A DNA stretch of 43,722 nt from Balneolaceae bacterium (lineage in GTDB: Bacteria; Bacteroidota; Rhodothermia; Balneolales; Balneolaceae): NCBI GenBank assembly GCA_020832285.1, contig JAFIFB010000026.1, positions 1-43,722 of the forward strand, given 5' to 3'. A program made the position numbers and the translations under genes. Below the pieces are notes generated by a model that was not told the origin of the DNA, did no database searches, and saw nothing but the letters and a program-made list of their open reading frames with translations. How positions within the stretch are numbered: position 1 is the first letter of the stretch; each line of letters opens with the position of its first letter. Shown one piece after another: positions 1,774 through 8,208 of this stretch.

Positions 1774-2148
1774 CTATTCGTAAAGCTGCCTGTTATCCGT
1801 GCCGGAGTTTGGCTGTTGGAAGTTCTTTTTAAGAATCTCCTGCCTGAGTGTGCTAAATTTTGTGTCTTTGTATTGCCTCAAAAAGTTACAGAGCCTCCTC
1901 TGGTCCCAGTGCGGGGCCACACGCCCTGCCACATCGTCGGCCGTGGCCTCCGGGTGGTTCCGGATTACAGCCCGGATCTTTTTGTGCCTTTCCTCCCTGA
2001 GAATGGCATTCGGCGTCATCCCGTAGTGCATCTTCGTACAGGCTGCCAGCCAGCTTTCCGAACAGCCGGCTTCCGATGCCACCCAGTCGTCTACATTCCG
2101 GATCTGCCCCAGTTTCTTTATCAGGTTTCGCCGGGCACGTTCAGCCAC
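1774..2148 (-). CDS. AraC-like helix-turn-helix regulator (translatable part; 5' end out of frame)
   Basis: The 124-residue frame (GTG at 2148) matches the double helix-turn-helix of the AraC DNA-binding domain. The first HTH is around VASEAGCSESWLAACTKMHYG, then comes the linking helix (AILREERHKKIRAVI), and the second HTH is around ADDVAGRV with NFLRQYKDTKFSTLRQEI matching the family's final helices. The GTG has no ribosome site. A much better start, ATG at 2219 with GAGGT 4 bases upstream, lies beyond a G12 run (2172-2183 on this strand). In the sequenced state that frame stops at TAA right after the run, giving a 16-residue peptide. With 13 or 10 G it reads uninterrupted into this domain. 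The protein is therefore probably phase-variable and OFF here. A decayed copy of its C-terminus is at 5697-5880. Confidence 0.7.
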   Translation of the reverse strand: MAERARRNLIKKLGQIRNVDDWVASEAGCSESWLAACTKMHYGMTPNAILREERHKKIRAVIRNHPEATADDVAGRVAPHWDQRRLCNFLRQYKDTKFSTLRQEILKKNFQQPNSGTDNRQLYE

Positions 2149-2171
2149 AAAACCCGCCTGAACATGATTTA

Positions 2172-2183
2172 CCCCCCCCCCCC
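2172..2183. repeat. C12/G12 homopolymer, candidate phase-variation tract
   Basis: Twelve consecutive C on the plus strand (G on the coding strand), directly followed by seven T. The tract lies between the ATG at 2219 and the AraC-like domain. Codons ATG AAT GAT GGG ACA TCA and so on run through four GGG codons and then meet TAA. The 23 bases between the tract and the GTG at 2148 mean that tract length n must satisfy n = 1 modulo 3 (10 or 13) for an intact fusion. Long G runs are prone to slipped-strand mispairing. The count could also reflect a sequencing or consensus error. Confidence 0.85.
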
Positions 2184-2216
2184 TTTTTTTGTTTCTCGCT
2201 CTGATGTCCCATCATT

Positions 2217-2228
2217 CATGCGTACCTC
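2217..2228 (-). promoter_or_regulatory. Ribosome site and upstream start for the AraC-like gene
   Basis: On the minus strand, GAGGT (2228-2224) lies 4 bases before ATG (2219-2217). This is the only good Shine-Dalgarno/start pair upstream of the regulator domain and supports 2219 as the biological start, placing the G12 tract inside the coding region. Confidence 0.6.
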
Positions 2229-2642: not shown

Positions 2643-3731
2643 TTAATAAGAATTGAACTTCGTGATATCAGGCAAATCGTATACGTAAATTTCATGGAGA
2701 CTGAGAGGAGTGAAACCATACAGTTTGCCATGGTTTTCCGATACTGTAAATCCGTGAATGGCTCTGTCGAACGAAGCTCGATATACAGGCTTACCTTCCC
2801 AATCCCAAATTTCTAATGAAGTTTTGAATGATTCTGGATTTTCTGAAATTTTTTCTCTTTCAGCGTGCCAGCCTAAGCTGTATAAATAATTATCAGAAGC
2901 CCATTCCAAAGTGCTGTATAGAAATGAATCACTAATAGTTGCCTCATTCGTTAAATTACGGTCTTCTACTCTTTTTGCCTGAACTTTTTGACCTTCTGAA
3001 TTGAATATCTTAAACATATTGTGATACACATAAAAAGCCGCAAACTTTGACCCATCATGTGATGCAGTATTGGTTTTTATGTACTTAAAATACCTCTCCG
3101 GTCCTTCCAGTTCTGTACTTGGATATTTGCCGAACGTAAATATGGCTTCTTGTTGATCCGGAGCCAAAACAATATACTCATGATTTGTATCTTCGAATGA
3201 CGTGCCATAATCTGCAACAAAATAGCCGTTATTTAATTTCTGTACATGCGTTAATGGGTCAATCTGACGGTTATGAGAAAGAAATTTTTCATCCGTATTA
3301 ATAAAAGCAGAATCACTAACTTTATAATATCTTAGTTGTTGCAAACCAATTTCATAGAGTATCAATTCATTTTCCTCAGATGTATTTATTTCTGTCACTG
3401 GAATTATCAAAAATTCATCTGGTCCCCTTCCTGTTTGCCCCCATGAATACAAAAATTCAAGTTCAGGCATGTTGAATACCTGAAAAATTCCCTCTCTCCT
3501 GTTATCGCTGATAACCAGGTAACTATCATTAACATTTACTATTCGAACCGGATGAAGCAATTCGGTTTCATTTTCAAAAGAAATCACGTGTGCACTTAGT
3601 GTATCGGCGACTGGTAACGCCGGAATGGATTCAAAAAGTTCTGTACCGGTATCAACTCTGCCGCAAGCACATACCACACCAATTATCATCAAGAACTGAA
3701 ATAACAATAGGTTGATCAGTGATTTTCTCAT
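2643..3731 (-). CDS. 6-bladed beta-propeller lipoprotein (paralog 2)
   Basis: The open frame extends to 3800, but the ATG at 3731 gives a clean lipoprotein signal: MRKSLINLLLF, a hydrophobic core, and lipobox V-C-A-C with Cys23. The mature part is about 340 residues of beta-blade repeats with the family loop in the variant form G-R-G-P-D-E-F. As in the other paralogs, a C-terminal segment resembles WDWEGKPVYRASFD, a blade motif shared with paralog 7. It follows a decayed leader-peptide gene (about 3842-4097), the same peptide-then-propeller order seen twice more in this region. Export to the periplasm or outer membrane is inferred; the ligand is unknown. Confidence 0.85.
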   Translation of the reverse strand: MRKSLINLLLFQFLMIIGVVCACGRVDTGTELFESIPALPVADTLSAHVISFENETELLHPVRIVNVNDSYLVISDNRREGIFQVFNMPELEFLYSWGQTGRGPDEFLIIPVTEINTSEENELILYEIGLQQLRYYKVSDSAFINTDEKFLSHNRQIDPLTHVQKLNNGYFVADYGTSFEDTNHEYIVLAPDQQEAIFTFGKYPSTELEGPERYFKYIKTNTASHDGSKFAAFYVYHNMFKIFNSEGQKVQAKRVEDRNLTNEATISDSFLYSTLEWASDNYLYSLGWHAEREKISENPESFKTSLEIWDWEGKPVYRASFDRAIHGFTVSENHGKLYGFTPLSLHEIYVYDLPDITKFNSY

Positions 3732-3841
3732 TATAATATGTTGTAATATGTATGTTGTACTCTGTTTTAGAGTATTATTAATCATACCTCTTTGATCCAA
3801 TAGTTATCCGCGAATAACTTCCCATATACTCATTCTCTCCC

Positions 3842-4105: not shown

Positions 4106-5161
4106 CTATTCCAAAAGTGAGGTCAGGTTGTTTTCATAAATTCCCAAATAAACCTCTTCATCAATCATGTGCAAAGTGTATATGTGCAGATCATCTGCAA
4201 CAATAGATCCAGATCCGGATAAATATGGAAGTTCTACGGATGCAAGATACCGGCCATTATGTTTATCATAAAAATCCAGAAGTTGCCTTTCCCGTATTCG
4301 TTCGCCGGCATGGAGTATCATCAAATAGTCATTATAAACAGTAAAACCAATTGCCGAATAATACCCTGTCTCAGTATATTGAAATGATCTTTGTTCTCCA
4401 CTTAAAAATGTCACATAATTGGCCTCACCTGGAAAGTCATCAATTGTAGCAATGGAGTACTCCAAATTACCTTCCTGGTCCCATTTTTTTAAAATATGTT
4501 CTGAAAACCCGGCATAATAAAAATATTCTTCATCTGTTAAAGTCGATCCAGAATACATGAGTGGATTGTAATTGTCTTTTGAAATTTCGCCGAAACTTAA
4601 AATCCTGTTGCCATCTTTATCTATCGTATGAAAAAGATGATCAGACCCCGAAGATGTAGCAGACAAAATGGTAATACGCTCATTTTCCCACATATTTAGT
4701 CTGTGCGGGCTTATTTCATCCAATATAAATTCATTGACAAACCTTCCGTCAGTTTTCCATATCTGAATTTTCATTAGACTTCCATCAGTAATAATGATAT
4801 AGGGAGAAAAAACATCAAAGGTACCAATAGCTGTTATCTCTCCCGGACCCCTTCCTTGAGCTGGTGATATAGTGTGTTTGTATTCAAACGTTTTTTTATC
4901 TATTACAAATATTTTGTTTAGTGCCGATGCATCACGGATGTATAGATTGTTATTATCCATATTTAAGACACTGGCATTAATCATGCCAAAAGCTTCATAT
5001 AGCAACAGGCTATCTTTTATAGCCATTGACCCTATCAGTATACGATCCGTTATATTTTGTGATTCTTTTATTAAAAAAGGATTCTTAGCCTCTTCATGGG
5101 AGCAGCTTGCAAAAAAAATAATTATTGCAACATAGAAAATAAATATATGATTATTATACAC
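4106..5161 (-). CDS. 6-bladed beta-propeller lipoprotein (paralog 3)
   Basis: The 351-residue product has a lipoprotein signal (MYNNHIFIFYVAIII) ending in F-A-S-C, with Cys20. The mature protein contains blade repeats such as FVIDKKTFEYKHTI and the family loop G-R-G-P-G-E-I near residue 103. It lies 116 bases downstream of the second cysteine-rich leader peptide and is probably co-transcribed with it. Role unknown; exported, lipid-anchored location inferred. Confidence 0.85.
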   Translation of the reverse strand: MYNNHIFIFYVAIIIFFASCSHEEAKNPFLIKESQNITDRILIGSMAIKDSLLLYEAFGMINASVLNMDNNNLYIRDASALNKIFVIDKKTFEYKHTISPAQGRGPGEITAIGTFDVFSPYIIITDGSLMKIQIWKTDGRFVNEFILDEISPHRLNMWENERITILSATSSGSDHLFHTIDKDGNRILSFGEISKDNYNPLMYSGSTLTDEEYFYYAGFSEHILKKWDQEGNLEYSIATIDDFPGEANYVTFLSGEQRSFQYTETGYYSAIGFTVYNDYLMILHAGERIRERQLLDFYDKHNGRYLASVELPYLSGSGSIVADDLHIYTLHMIDEEVYLGIYENNLTSLLE

Positions 5162-5277: not shown

Positions 5278-5556
5278 TTAATAATTAGGTCTATAACAGT
5301 ATGTTGTCGTACCACCACCAACGGGTACAATAGCGCCACAATACCAGCTATCAGATGAGTCATGACAAGTGCCACCCCAACCAAAACAACCTGAACAACC
5401 ACCAGTGCATTCTCCTGAAGAAACAGCTAATGCCGAAATCCCGCTCAAACTAATATCTGTTTCCATTCCCGAGTTTTCTATTGACACGCTCACATTAAAC
5501 AACATCAGTGCTGCAAAAGCACAAGATGATATCAAGATTAGAATTTTCTTTTTCAT
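5278..5556 (-). CDS. NVEALA-like leader peptide with six-cysteine core (copy 2)
   Basis: The 92-residue product shares residues 1-44 almost completely with copy 1 (MKKKILI, SSCAFAALMLFNVSVS, GMETDISLSGI). The core differs: cysteines at 50, 54, 57, 64, 73 and 87, glycine-rich, ending TTTYCYRPNY. The same AAGGAG ribosome site and 5' leader precede it. A conserved leader with a divergent but still six-cysteine core suggests a common export or processing machinery acting on diversifying cargo. Upstream is the truncated tail of a second AraC-like gene; downstream is a beta-propeller lipoprotein. Function unknown. Confidence 0.7.
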   Translation of the reverse strand: MKKKILILISSCAFAALMLFNVSVSIENSGMETDISLSGISALAVSSGECTGGCSGCFGWGGTCHDSSDSWYCGAIVPVGGGTTTYCYRPNY

Positions 5557-5880
5557 AAGATGTCTCCTTAATTATTTGATTTGGTTTTCCAACATTCTGA
5601 CAGCCCATTAAGGTTTTCAGAAGTTGTTTTTTAAATAAACCACTCAAAATCAATAAATACCACCTAAATTGTACACTATTGGAGAACTAATGTACACTAT
5701 TCATAAACCCACCTGTCATTCGTACCATGAATTTGGCTGTTGGAAGTTATTTTTAGAATCTCCTGCCTGAGTGTTCTAAAATTTGAGTCATTGTATTGCC
5801 TCAAAAAGTTACAGAGTCTCCTTTGGTTCCAGTGCGGGGCCACACGCCCTGCCACATCCGCAGCTGTGGCCTCCGAGTGG
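5440..5880. repeat. Direct repeat of the 1510-1970 cassette (peptide leader plus regulator 3' end)
   Basis: Positions about 1510-1970 and 5440-5880 align almost base for base. The shared stretch covers the leader-coding part of the peptide gene, its ribosome site, the approximately 140-base gap and the 3' half of the AraC-like gene. Similarity stops abruptly at 5880 after CTCCGAGTGG and fades inside the peptide cores. The copies differ at scattered positions, so the duplication is not recent. This is one block of a duplicated regulator-peptide-propeller cassette. Confidence 0.8.
5697..5880 (-). pseudogene. Truncated AraC-like regulator, C-terminal fragment
   Basis: Reading from 5880 downward, the frame gives HSEATAADVAGRVAPHWNQ and then RRLCNFLRQYNDSNFRTLRQEIL, matching the second HTH of the intact homologue at 1774-2148, with the same final Tyr-Glu-stop. 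The N-terminal half, including the G tract, is absent: homology ends at 5880. It is a remnant of the duplicated cassette. Confidence 0.7.
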
Positions 5881-6479
5881 AATTAAGTGGTGAAAGCATG
5901 AGAAAAAAACAGTAATATTGTCATAGCTAATAAATCAATGTAACCAAGTCCAAGGTGGGGCAGTTTCCCCAGACTGAGGGGTCAGCTTGTCCGGAATAAC
6001 TACTATTGGAACTCATTACAGAACACCATCTCATTCGGCATATAACCCTGGCTATGAATTGAATCTTATACACAATGCAGAAAACTCTTCTATCTTGCAT
6101 TATTCATAAAAATAAGCTGATTGGGGAATAATGCAGGATATAACAACGAAAATAATAGTTGAAGAAATTGTAAACTGCAACCTTATATTTATAGATGATA
6201 TAGATTTATCCATATTTTTTTTCGGGAAACTGGACCAGCCAAATTTCAGCTGCTATTTCGCGAACTAACTACGATTTATGGCTTCAAAATAATCAGAGAG
6301 CTTTATATCCTATATGTAGCTGGTGAGGTGGATACGATTAAATGGTTCAATTGGAACTGTAAGTTAACATCAATGAGTTATTTAGCAAACATGGGATTTT
6401 AAAAGGTCTCGAGGCGTGTCCGATTTGAGCCGCTTGATATTATTTTACCTATCTTATAATTAATAGAATTGTAAAGATT
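5881..6479. other. Gene-poor stretch with a possible IS21-family end
   Basis: No convincing gene lies here. Around 5960-6000 the sequence GTGGGGCAGTTTCC, then CAGACTGAGGGGTCAGC and TTGTCCGGAATAACTA, resembles the repeated 'TGGGGCAG/GGGGTCAG' motifs found near ends of IS21-family elements (from memory, not searched). A broken plus-strand frame near 6250-6400 (LLFRELTTIYGFKIIRELYI) is not recognised and ends at a stop. I read the stretch as decayed mobile DNA that ended the truncated cassette. Confidence 0.3.
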
Positions 6480-7689: not shown

Positions 7690-7989
7690 CTATACCCGAG
7701 ACTTCCATAGATCAGGATTTCTGCTTTGCCGTATAATCGCAAATATACTGAGTACCTCTGGCTTTTCAACGTAAAAAACAGAATACGGAAAACGTGATAC
7801 TAGTGCTCTTCGAACTCTATCTTTGTAAATAATTTGAAATTGCTCAGGAAACCGTTGAATCTCTGCTATCTTTGCATCCACACAACGCGCAAATTCTTTT
7901 CCTAAACCCTGATATTGCTCTTCATACCACCAATAAGTACTGTCAAAATCTCGTTGAGCCTGGAGAGTAATGATAGTTGGTTTGCCCAC
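7690..7989 (-). CDS. ParE/RelE-family toxin
   Basis: The 99-residue product fits the RelE/ParE fold: N-terminal helices with ITLQAQRDFDSTYWWYEEQY, then GKEFARCVDAKIAEIQRFPE, and the C-terminal strands RRALVSRFPYSVFYVEKPE and IFAIIRQSRNPDLWKSR. The pattern 'FPYSVFY...I.AI.HxxRxPxxW' is diagnostic of ParE-type toxins, which poison gyrase or cleave ribosome-bound mRNA. The gene begins 6 bases after its antitoxin and is surely co-transcribed with it. It appears intact. Confidence 0.88.
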   Translation of the reverse strand: MGKPTIITLQAQRDFDSTYWWYEEQYQGLGKEFARCVDAKIAEIQRFPEQFQIIYKDRVRRALVSRFPYSVFYVEKPEVLSIFAIIRQSRNPDLWKSRV

Positions 7990-7995
7990 AGTGAC

Positions 7996-8208
7996 TTATA
8001 AATAGTTTTTTCGGAACTCGTTCCAAGGCGTTCCCTTTTCCGTATCTTCATCAAGTGTTTTGAGACGCTCATCCAAAACAGATTTATGATGTTCTGGTAG
8101 CGGAACATCTTCCGGCTCGGAGGCGATGGAGTCCCATAGTGCCTCAACCAAAAGCAGTTTTTCACTCTTGTTTAGCTTTTCGATCTGTTTGGTCAGTGTG
8201 TCTTCCAT
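7996..8208 (-). CDS. Antitoxin, addiction-module component family
   Basis: This 70-residue acidic protein begins MEDTLTKQIEKLNKSEKLLL and carries VEALWDSIASEPEDVPLPEHHKSVLDERL, the signature of the short RelB-like 'addiction module component' antitoxins that pair with ParE/RelE toxins. It precedes the toxin gene, as is usual for type II systems. It should bind and neutralise the toxin and probably represses its own promoter; no clear operator is visible in the 200 bases upstream (8209-8415), which hold no other gene. Confidence 0.88.
   Translation of the reverse strand: MEDTLTKQIEKLNKSEKLLLVEALWDSIASEPEDVPLPEHHKSVLDERLKTLDEDTEKGTPWNEFRKNYL

Follow-up and report, generated by a model that had tools for sequence, protein, structure and literature searches.

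A G12 tract at the start of an AraC-like regulator gene in a Balneolaceae bacterium and its likely place in a class of repeat-bearing cassette regulators

Phase variation by a homopolymer tract depends on where the tract stands in the reading frame, and the locus described here raises the question of whether a run of 12 Gs between the start codon and the HTH frame of a small AraC-like regulator gene is such a switch. The window, which is the whole stretch of DNA that was analyzed, is 43,722 nucleotides long, and all of the window features given below are on the minus strand.

Reading frames and context of the G12 tract

The regulator gene occupies positions 1774-2219 when counted from the ATG at 2219 and is preceded by a Shine-Dalgarno-like GAGGT (2224-2228), presumably functional as such. 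Three ATGs are staggered at the start of the gene, with ATG1 at 2217-2219 and ATG2 and ATG3 (2215 and 2212) within 2210-2215, and an A7 run (2184-2190) leads into the G12 tract (2172-2183), which is followed by TAAATC. At this tract length the frame opened by ATG 2219 has 16 residues, reads MNDGTSERETKKGGGG and terminates, as the initial annotation had described, at a TAA (2169-2171). In the ORF list the HTH frame runs without a stop from the tract down to 1774, and it has no ATG, GTG or TTG from its upstream stop up to the tract. The non-triplet repeat stands between the start codon and most of the coding sequence. By phase arithmetic the assembled length of 0 mod 3 is OFF for all three ATGs, so the earlier statement that the regulator is off as assembled is correct. 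The gene would be ON in two of the three tract phases, at 1 mod 3 through ATG 2219 and at 2 mod 3 through ATGs 2215 and 2212, which lie in the +1 frame. The expectation that one added or two removed Gs would fuse the frames holds for ATG 2219 and had overlooked this second ON phase. Some tract phases would give, by this arithmetic, an intact protein homologous to its family. A 124-codon HTH frame (1774-2148, ORF list) begins at an internal GTG, a possible leaky start from which a shortened protein could be made even at G12.

The match of the protein to Pfam HTH_18 (E 1.1e-6) is below the cut-off, at 29.3 bits compared with a gathering score of 33.6. The AF2 model calculated from a 14-row alignment has a pLDDT of 82.8 and shows the double-HTH fold. 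The 20 best PDB matches of this model (Foldseek) are all AraC-type with TMq values of 0.55-0.67 and a best E of 0.013, none of the 20 reaching E<=0.001. The sub-threshold profile match and the AraC-type matches of the predicted fold together uphold the AraC-like double HTH first read from the sequence. This predicted fold is common to the AraC/XylS domains of SoxS, MarA and Rns, from which the window regulator differs in its weak sequence score and in having no effector domain. Matches to the window HTH occur in 25 of 58 genomes, its own included, and the search with the 14-row alignment gives a match in 25 of the 28 genomes of the genus. Two repeat-free relatives (G000:C66 and G020:C85, where G000 is the window's own genome) precede other genes, which presumably encode phage-tail-sheath proteins. 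A weaker relative in the window's own genome (G000:C21:1300-1602) has a leader containing T14.

To place the tract in its genomic background, the motif of a non-G followed by nine Gs was located at 71 places in the 28 genus genomes, window's included. Lengths were measured at 66 of these, 65 in other genomes and one at C67 of the window's own genome; the tract of the window, that of C115 and three of C114 are outside this count. Of the 66, 45 G9, 12 G10 and one G11 are separated by over 200 bases from either end of the sequence retrieved, and eight (five G9, two G10 and one G11) are closer to an end. The G12 of the window is the longest tract located away from contig ends and therefore appears to be more than chance. 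Tracts of G9 are fairly common elsewhere in the genus, and poly-G alone was rejected as a mark of these regulators, with few of the 66 listed tracts adjoining one by eye. Four of the 71 certainly belong to such a regulator (the window, G024:C142, G024:C339 and G001:C244:3912), and a possible fifth has the same leader type and lies at a contig end. Because most such tracts are not in these regulators, poly-G by itself proves nothing. A G10 at G000:C67:3949-3958 lies within an intact 424-amino acid ORF with no Pfam match above the cut-off and is a candidate for a second poly-G switch in the window's genome.

Poly-G is prone to sequencing error. The assembly of the window contains artefact-like runs of G12 and G17 within the last 35 bases of contig C114, and an assembly or sequencing error in the homopolymer, with the real tract at another fixed length and the gene ON, would give the same picture. 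This is nonetheless an unlikely explanation, as the tract is placed 2.2 kb inside a 43.7-kb contig and the less error-prone tetranucleotide repeats of relatives, described below, give the same OFF frame. Poly-G runs also mark the terminal 76 bases of C114 (G000:C114:4248-4321), probably as a sequencing artefact.

The near relatives of the window regulator are all broken. Sequence comparison identifies a truncated second copy at 5697-5882 comprising the C-terminal half only, and the copy in G017 is both truncated and frameshifted, so that local decay of the near relatives is real. The regulator itself could then be a decaying pseudogene, in which a duplicated cassette is losing both of its regulator copies and the tract is a fixed frameshift. 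We consider this about as improbable as a sequencing error, since around 130 codons stay open after the tract and align along the whole family profile, and the only defect is a hypermutable tract, in a position occupied by other repeats in relatives. Comparison of the window gene with its truncated copy gives a dN/dS of 0.49 over 61 codons, by which constraint is weakly measured. At the DNA level the region matches only in the window's own genome and in G017 among the 28 genus genomes, and both matches besides the window itself start after the tract. A comparison of tract length in close relatives was accordingly set aside with nothing to compare, as was the use of the second copy and G017 as orthologues for the tract, both being without the N-terminal part and silent on it.

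Repeats, frames and selection in related regulators

The 5' ends of 28 family members (15 best and 13 weaker) were inspected, excluding open frames of about 280 amino acids or more, the contig-end fragment G006:C41 and the truncated copy of the window. At the place of the tract, three members carry (AAAC)7-8 and one carries (CAAC)9, and the post-tract residues VNHVQAGF... of the window align with the post-repeat residues VNPLTEYK... of the relatives. Arrays of at least five units, searched with (AAAC) and (CAAC) picked after they had been seen in regulators, occur at five places in three of the 28 genus genomes for (AAAC) and at 12 places in eight of the 28 for (CAAC). In 15 of these 17 cases the array lies at the beginning of the gene for a small regulator of AraC or LuxR type, and the remaining two arrays are cut by contig ends. 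The places comprise four AraC-like genes of the window's family, one other AraC-type gene (G025:C193) and ten small LuxR-type genes. All five LuxR-type proteins scanned match Pfam GerE above the cut-off, and HTH_18 is above the cut-off in two of three other AraC-type proteins scanned (G025:C193 and G020:C46) and below it in G008:C2. The LuxR-type G021:C89 begins at a contig start with its own start codon outside the sequence, the contig of G024:C182 ends directly after the array, and the contig end at G002:C3 leaves six codons after the array, its leader being common to the AraC-like G002:C157. These last two leaders, both at contig ends, are almost identical and differ in having (AAAC)9 in frame (G002:C3) versus (AAAC)8 out of frame (G002:C157).

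Tetranucleotide arrays above threshold are absent from a 550-kb background made up of 40 stretches of G008 and G020, which were picked by contig number when C26 and C46 were already known; this background contains six perfect repeats above thresholds, one of them in a LuxR-type regulator. Across the order, (CAAC)6 matches in nine of 128 genomes, seven of which are in the genus, and outside the genus there is one place each in G099 and G097. In G099, which belongs to another genus of the family, a LuxR-type frame carries (CAAC)6 and then a TAAC array at its 5' end (C5:372777) and precedes a secreted-type peptide, frame and peptide both being judged by eye. The place in G097 (C349:1201-1232) is a (CAAC)8 in the N terminus of a lipoprotein-like gene, which is no regulator gene. 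A different repeat, the heptamer TTCACTT in eight copies, stands at a contig start (G020:C46:1-56).

The frame relationship was determined for a set of 18 repeat-bearing genes, window included, 16 of which combine an HTH frame that can be read with an ATG no more than 100 bases upstream; the frame of G025:C193 is that of its ORF and that of G002:C3 was taken from its six codons. In 13 of the 16 no upstream ATG shares the HTH frame; in two the second ATG does (G020:C46 at 21859 and G016:C105 at 34382), and in one, G002:C3, the first does. Compared with an expected one-third OFF, this bias has a binomial P of 1.2e-4, calculated over genes that include same-genome paralogues, which are not independent. 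A further ATG at +1 mod 3 is present at 16 of the 17 tracts with upstream sequence, the exception being G015:C17.

The coding pairs give dN/dS values of 0.09-0.27 in eight of 11 cases, several of them rough with dS above 1, and the other three pairs are saturated at synonymous sites. Low values extend to pairs in which both genes are OFF, with 0.27, 0.18 and 0.16 for the three pairs formed by three AraC-like genes and 0.27 for the LuxR-type pair G024:C356 and G015:C17. Judged by these ratios, the coding sequence of the repeat-bearing relatives is under purifying selection, and because the frames are kept at low dN/dS, a long-fixed OFF state is unlikely for them.

Three repeat-free homologues with an ATGCATGRAGA start (G004:C326, G016:C43 and G014:C186) all have the ATG in frame, and a recoding model was rejected as not needed because of them. 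That the regulator is made regardless of the tract, either from GTG 2148, which is preceded by a weak GGCGGG and would trim only the beginning of the first predicted helix, or by polymerase or ribosome slippage on A7G12, is the least credible explanation and very improbable, given these in-frame ATGs, the departure of the relatives' tetranucleotide arrays from canonical slippery heptamers, and four array-bearing AraC-like members whose HTH frame contains no ATG, GTG or TTG from the upstream stop to shortly past the array.

Phase variation is the reading that we favor. The repeats at the same place, the frames and the selection in relatives speak for the phase variation proposed in the initial annotation. 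Against it stands the tract of the window, which none of the 27 other genus genomes carries, so that no variation in its length was observed. Repeat-driven phase variation of small cassette regulators as a class is very likely, and membership of the window's G12 in that phase-variable class is probable. Several repeat types converge on the same place in these regulators.

The best-known examples of phase variation through repeats are surface genes of pathogens adapted to a host. In Neisseria, fetA and porA encode outer-membrane proteins. The lic2A gene of Haemophilus influenzae reportedly has more than one functional initiation codon, a finding attributed to Dixon et al. in 2007. The tetranucleotide repeats and multiple start codons described here resemble the lic loci, where the number of (CAAT)n repeats in lic2A, lic1A and lic3A sets ON or OFF, as described in passages of PMC6479036. 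The lic genes act in lipooligosaccharide synthesis, whereas here the gene is a small transcription regulator of an environmental, Balneolaceae-related genus.

Another arrangement is found in eight leaders, which have TGTAAC on one side of a G6-G10 run and TCTTGTA, TCTTTTA or GCATC on the other, the spacers measuring 15-20. Two of these leaders precede AraC-like and five LuxR-type regulators, and one (G001:C244) is cut by a contig end before the gene. We propose that the homopolymer, lying between candidate -35 and -10 elements, alters expression of the regulator. Parts of PMC5320596 describe a homopolymer between -35 and -10 that alters expression of fetA and porA, and the proposed spacer arrangement is similar, with the differences that the gene switched here would be a peptide-cassette regulator and that the promoter elements are putative. 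Small LuxR-type proteins match above 70 bits in 21 cases. A tetranucleotide array in the coding sequence is present in ten of these and a (AGGCAACC)3 array in one, the spacer run is G7 or longer in four and G6 in one, and five have none of these features; an internal stop is present in two of the 21 (G009:C143 and G001:C244:7495). The TGTAAC-N15-GCATC leader is absent from the window at up to one mismatch. This bipartite leader occurs at 31 of 239 loci, many of which overlap, stands in front of both AraC-type and LuxR-type regulators, and is perhaps the promoter of an alternative sigma factor.

Peptide cassettes and the candidate operator

The regulator gene of the window is followed by a gene for a small Cys-rich peptide with a signal-like N terminus by eye (1380-1634) and by a 6-bladed β-propeller protein (240-1292; DUF5128, Pfam E 9.7e-13). 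A second small peptide gene, by eye a paralogue of the first, is present in the ORF list at 5278-5556. It is followed by a 351-amino acid ORF (4106-5161) with no Pfam match above the cut-off, which is propeller-like by position only, and a further 6-bladed propeller protein is encoded at 2643-3800 (TolB_like, Pfam E 1.6e-15). The peptide has no Pfam family at E<=1 and none near the cut-off in NCBIfam. Of the earlier description as NVEALA-type peptides, the small secreted-type peptide gene following the regulator stands and the family assignment finds no counterpart in Pfam or NCBIfam; the open-access literature search returned nothing on NVEALA.

Between the regulator and the peptide gene is a direct repeat, AATAGTGTAC-N11-AATAGTGTGC, with a 21-bp period (1748-1778), which is a candidate operator. 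A protein of the AraC/XylS family would be expected to bind direct repeats spaced by around two helical turns. A second copy, AATAGTGTAC-N11-AATAGTGTAC, is located before the paralogous peptide gene (5671-5701). The window itself supplied the search pattern, which makes the first match a given, and 100 shuffles yield no match. G017 keeps the direct repeat though its regulator is broken. Direct repeats after the regulator are found at p<=0.06 (200 shuffles, uncorrected) in seven of the 28 members (G022:C14, G008:C2, G002:C157, G004, G014:C137, G017:C463 and the window) and not in 20, with G017:C61 having no sequence to score. In another subfamily, five members carry boxes of the CTCAAAT type in this position, repeated with a period of 20 bp. 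The position of these conserved direct repeats between regulator and peptide gene is the reason for proposing a local activator, and activation by the window HTH protein through the candidate operator is, on the sequence, somewhat favored.

A small secreted-type or double-glycine-like peptide ORF lies downstream in ten of the 12 repeat-bearing loci listed, as judged by eye, and of the other two one is cut by a contig end and one has no visible peptide ORF. A propeller-type ORF usually accompanies the peptide ORF in repeat-bearing loci, and the layout looks similar among the AraC-like loci of a separate listing, both again by eye. Pfam identifies a Peptidase_C39 protein in two AraC-family cassettes, and a VKOR-thioredoxin protein is identified in one LuxR-type cassette, with others looking alike. 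Two peptides match bacteriocin models only below the cut-off (E 0.01 and 0.055), and the peptides are, on this basis, putatively bacteriocin-like.

From these features we infer slippage of the tract in living cells, activation of the neighboring genes and the role of the peptides. In the mechanism proposed, replication slippage of G12 would move ATG1 or ATG2/3 in or out of frame with the AraC-like protein, so that few cells make it; the protein, once made, would probably activate the peptide-propeller operon by binding the direct repeats of 21-bp period that follow its own gene closely. Within a class of small AraC-like and LuxR-type regulators that spans the genus and stands at the head of secreted-peptide cassettes, the window gene would be the member with poly-G. 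The repeats of this class sit either near the 5' end of the coding sequence or within the promoter spacer, and most of its members would rest OFF. In phasevarions, described in parts of PMC2667262, one repeat in a phase-variable mod methyltransferase switches other genes via a regulator; here there is no methyltransferase, and a local DNA-binding protein with one neighboring operon is proposed instead.

The evidence points to regulators that act locally on secreted-peptide cassettes in a mostly uncultured, Balneolaceae-related genus, whose individual cells probably switch peptide production on or off randomly. Among the matches listed from the open-access literature, no report was found of phase-variable peptide-cassette regulators in Balneolaceae or Bacteroidota. 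A broader model, toward which we lean slightly, is that this free-living genus carries a set of mostly-OFF switches formed by tiny cassette-specific transcription activators from two families without relationship to each other. Each activator would have a repeat tract of its own, at the coding start or in the promoter spacer, and staggered ATGs giving three expression states, so that only rare cells would secrete each peptide or bacteriocin-like product in an unlinked, combinatorial division of labor. If true, it becomes testable whether public goods or bacteriocin-like peptides are controlled randomly in single cells, and repeats at regulator starts offer a simple way to find further such cassettes. 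Elsewhere in the window, at 7690-8208, Pfam identifies a ParE-type toxin paired with an addiction-module antitoxin.
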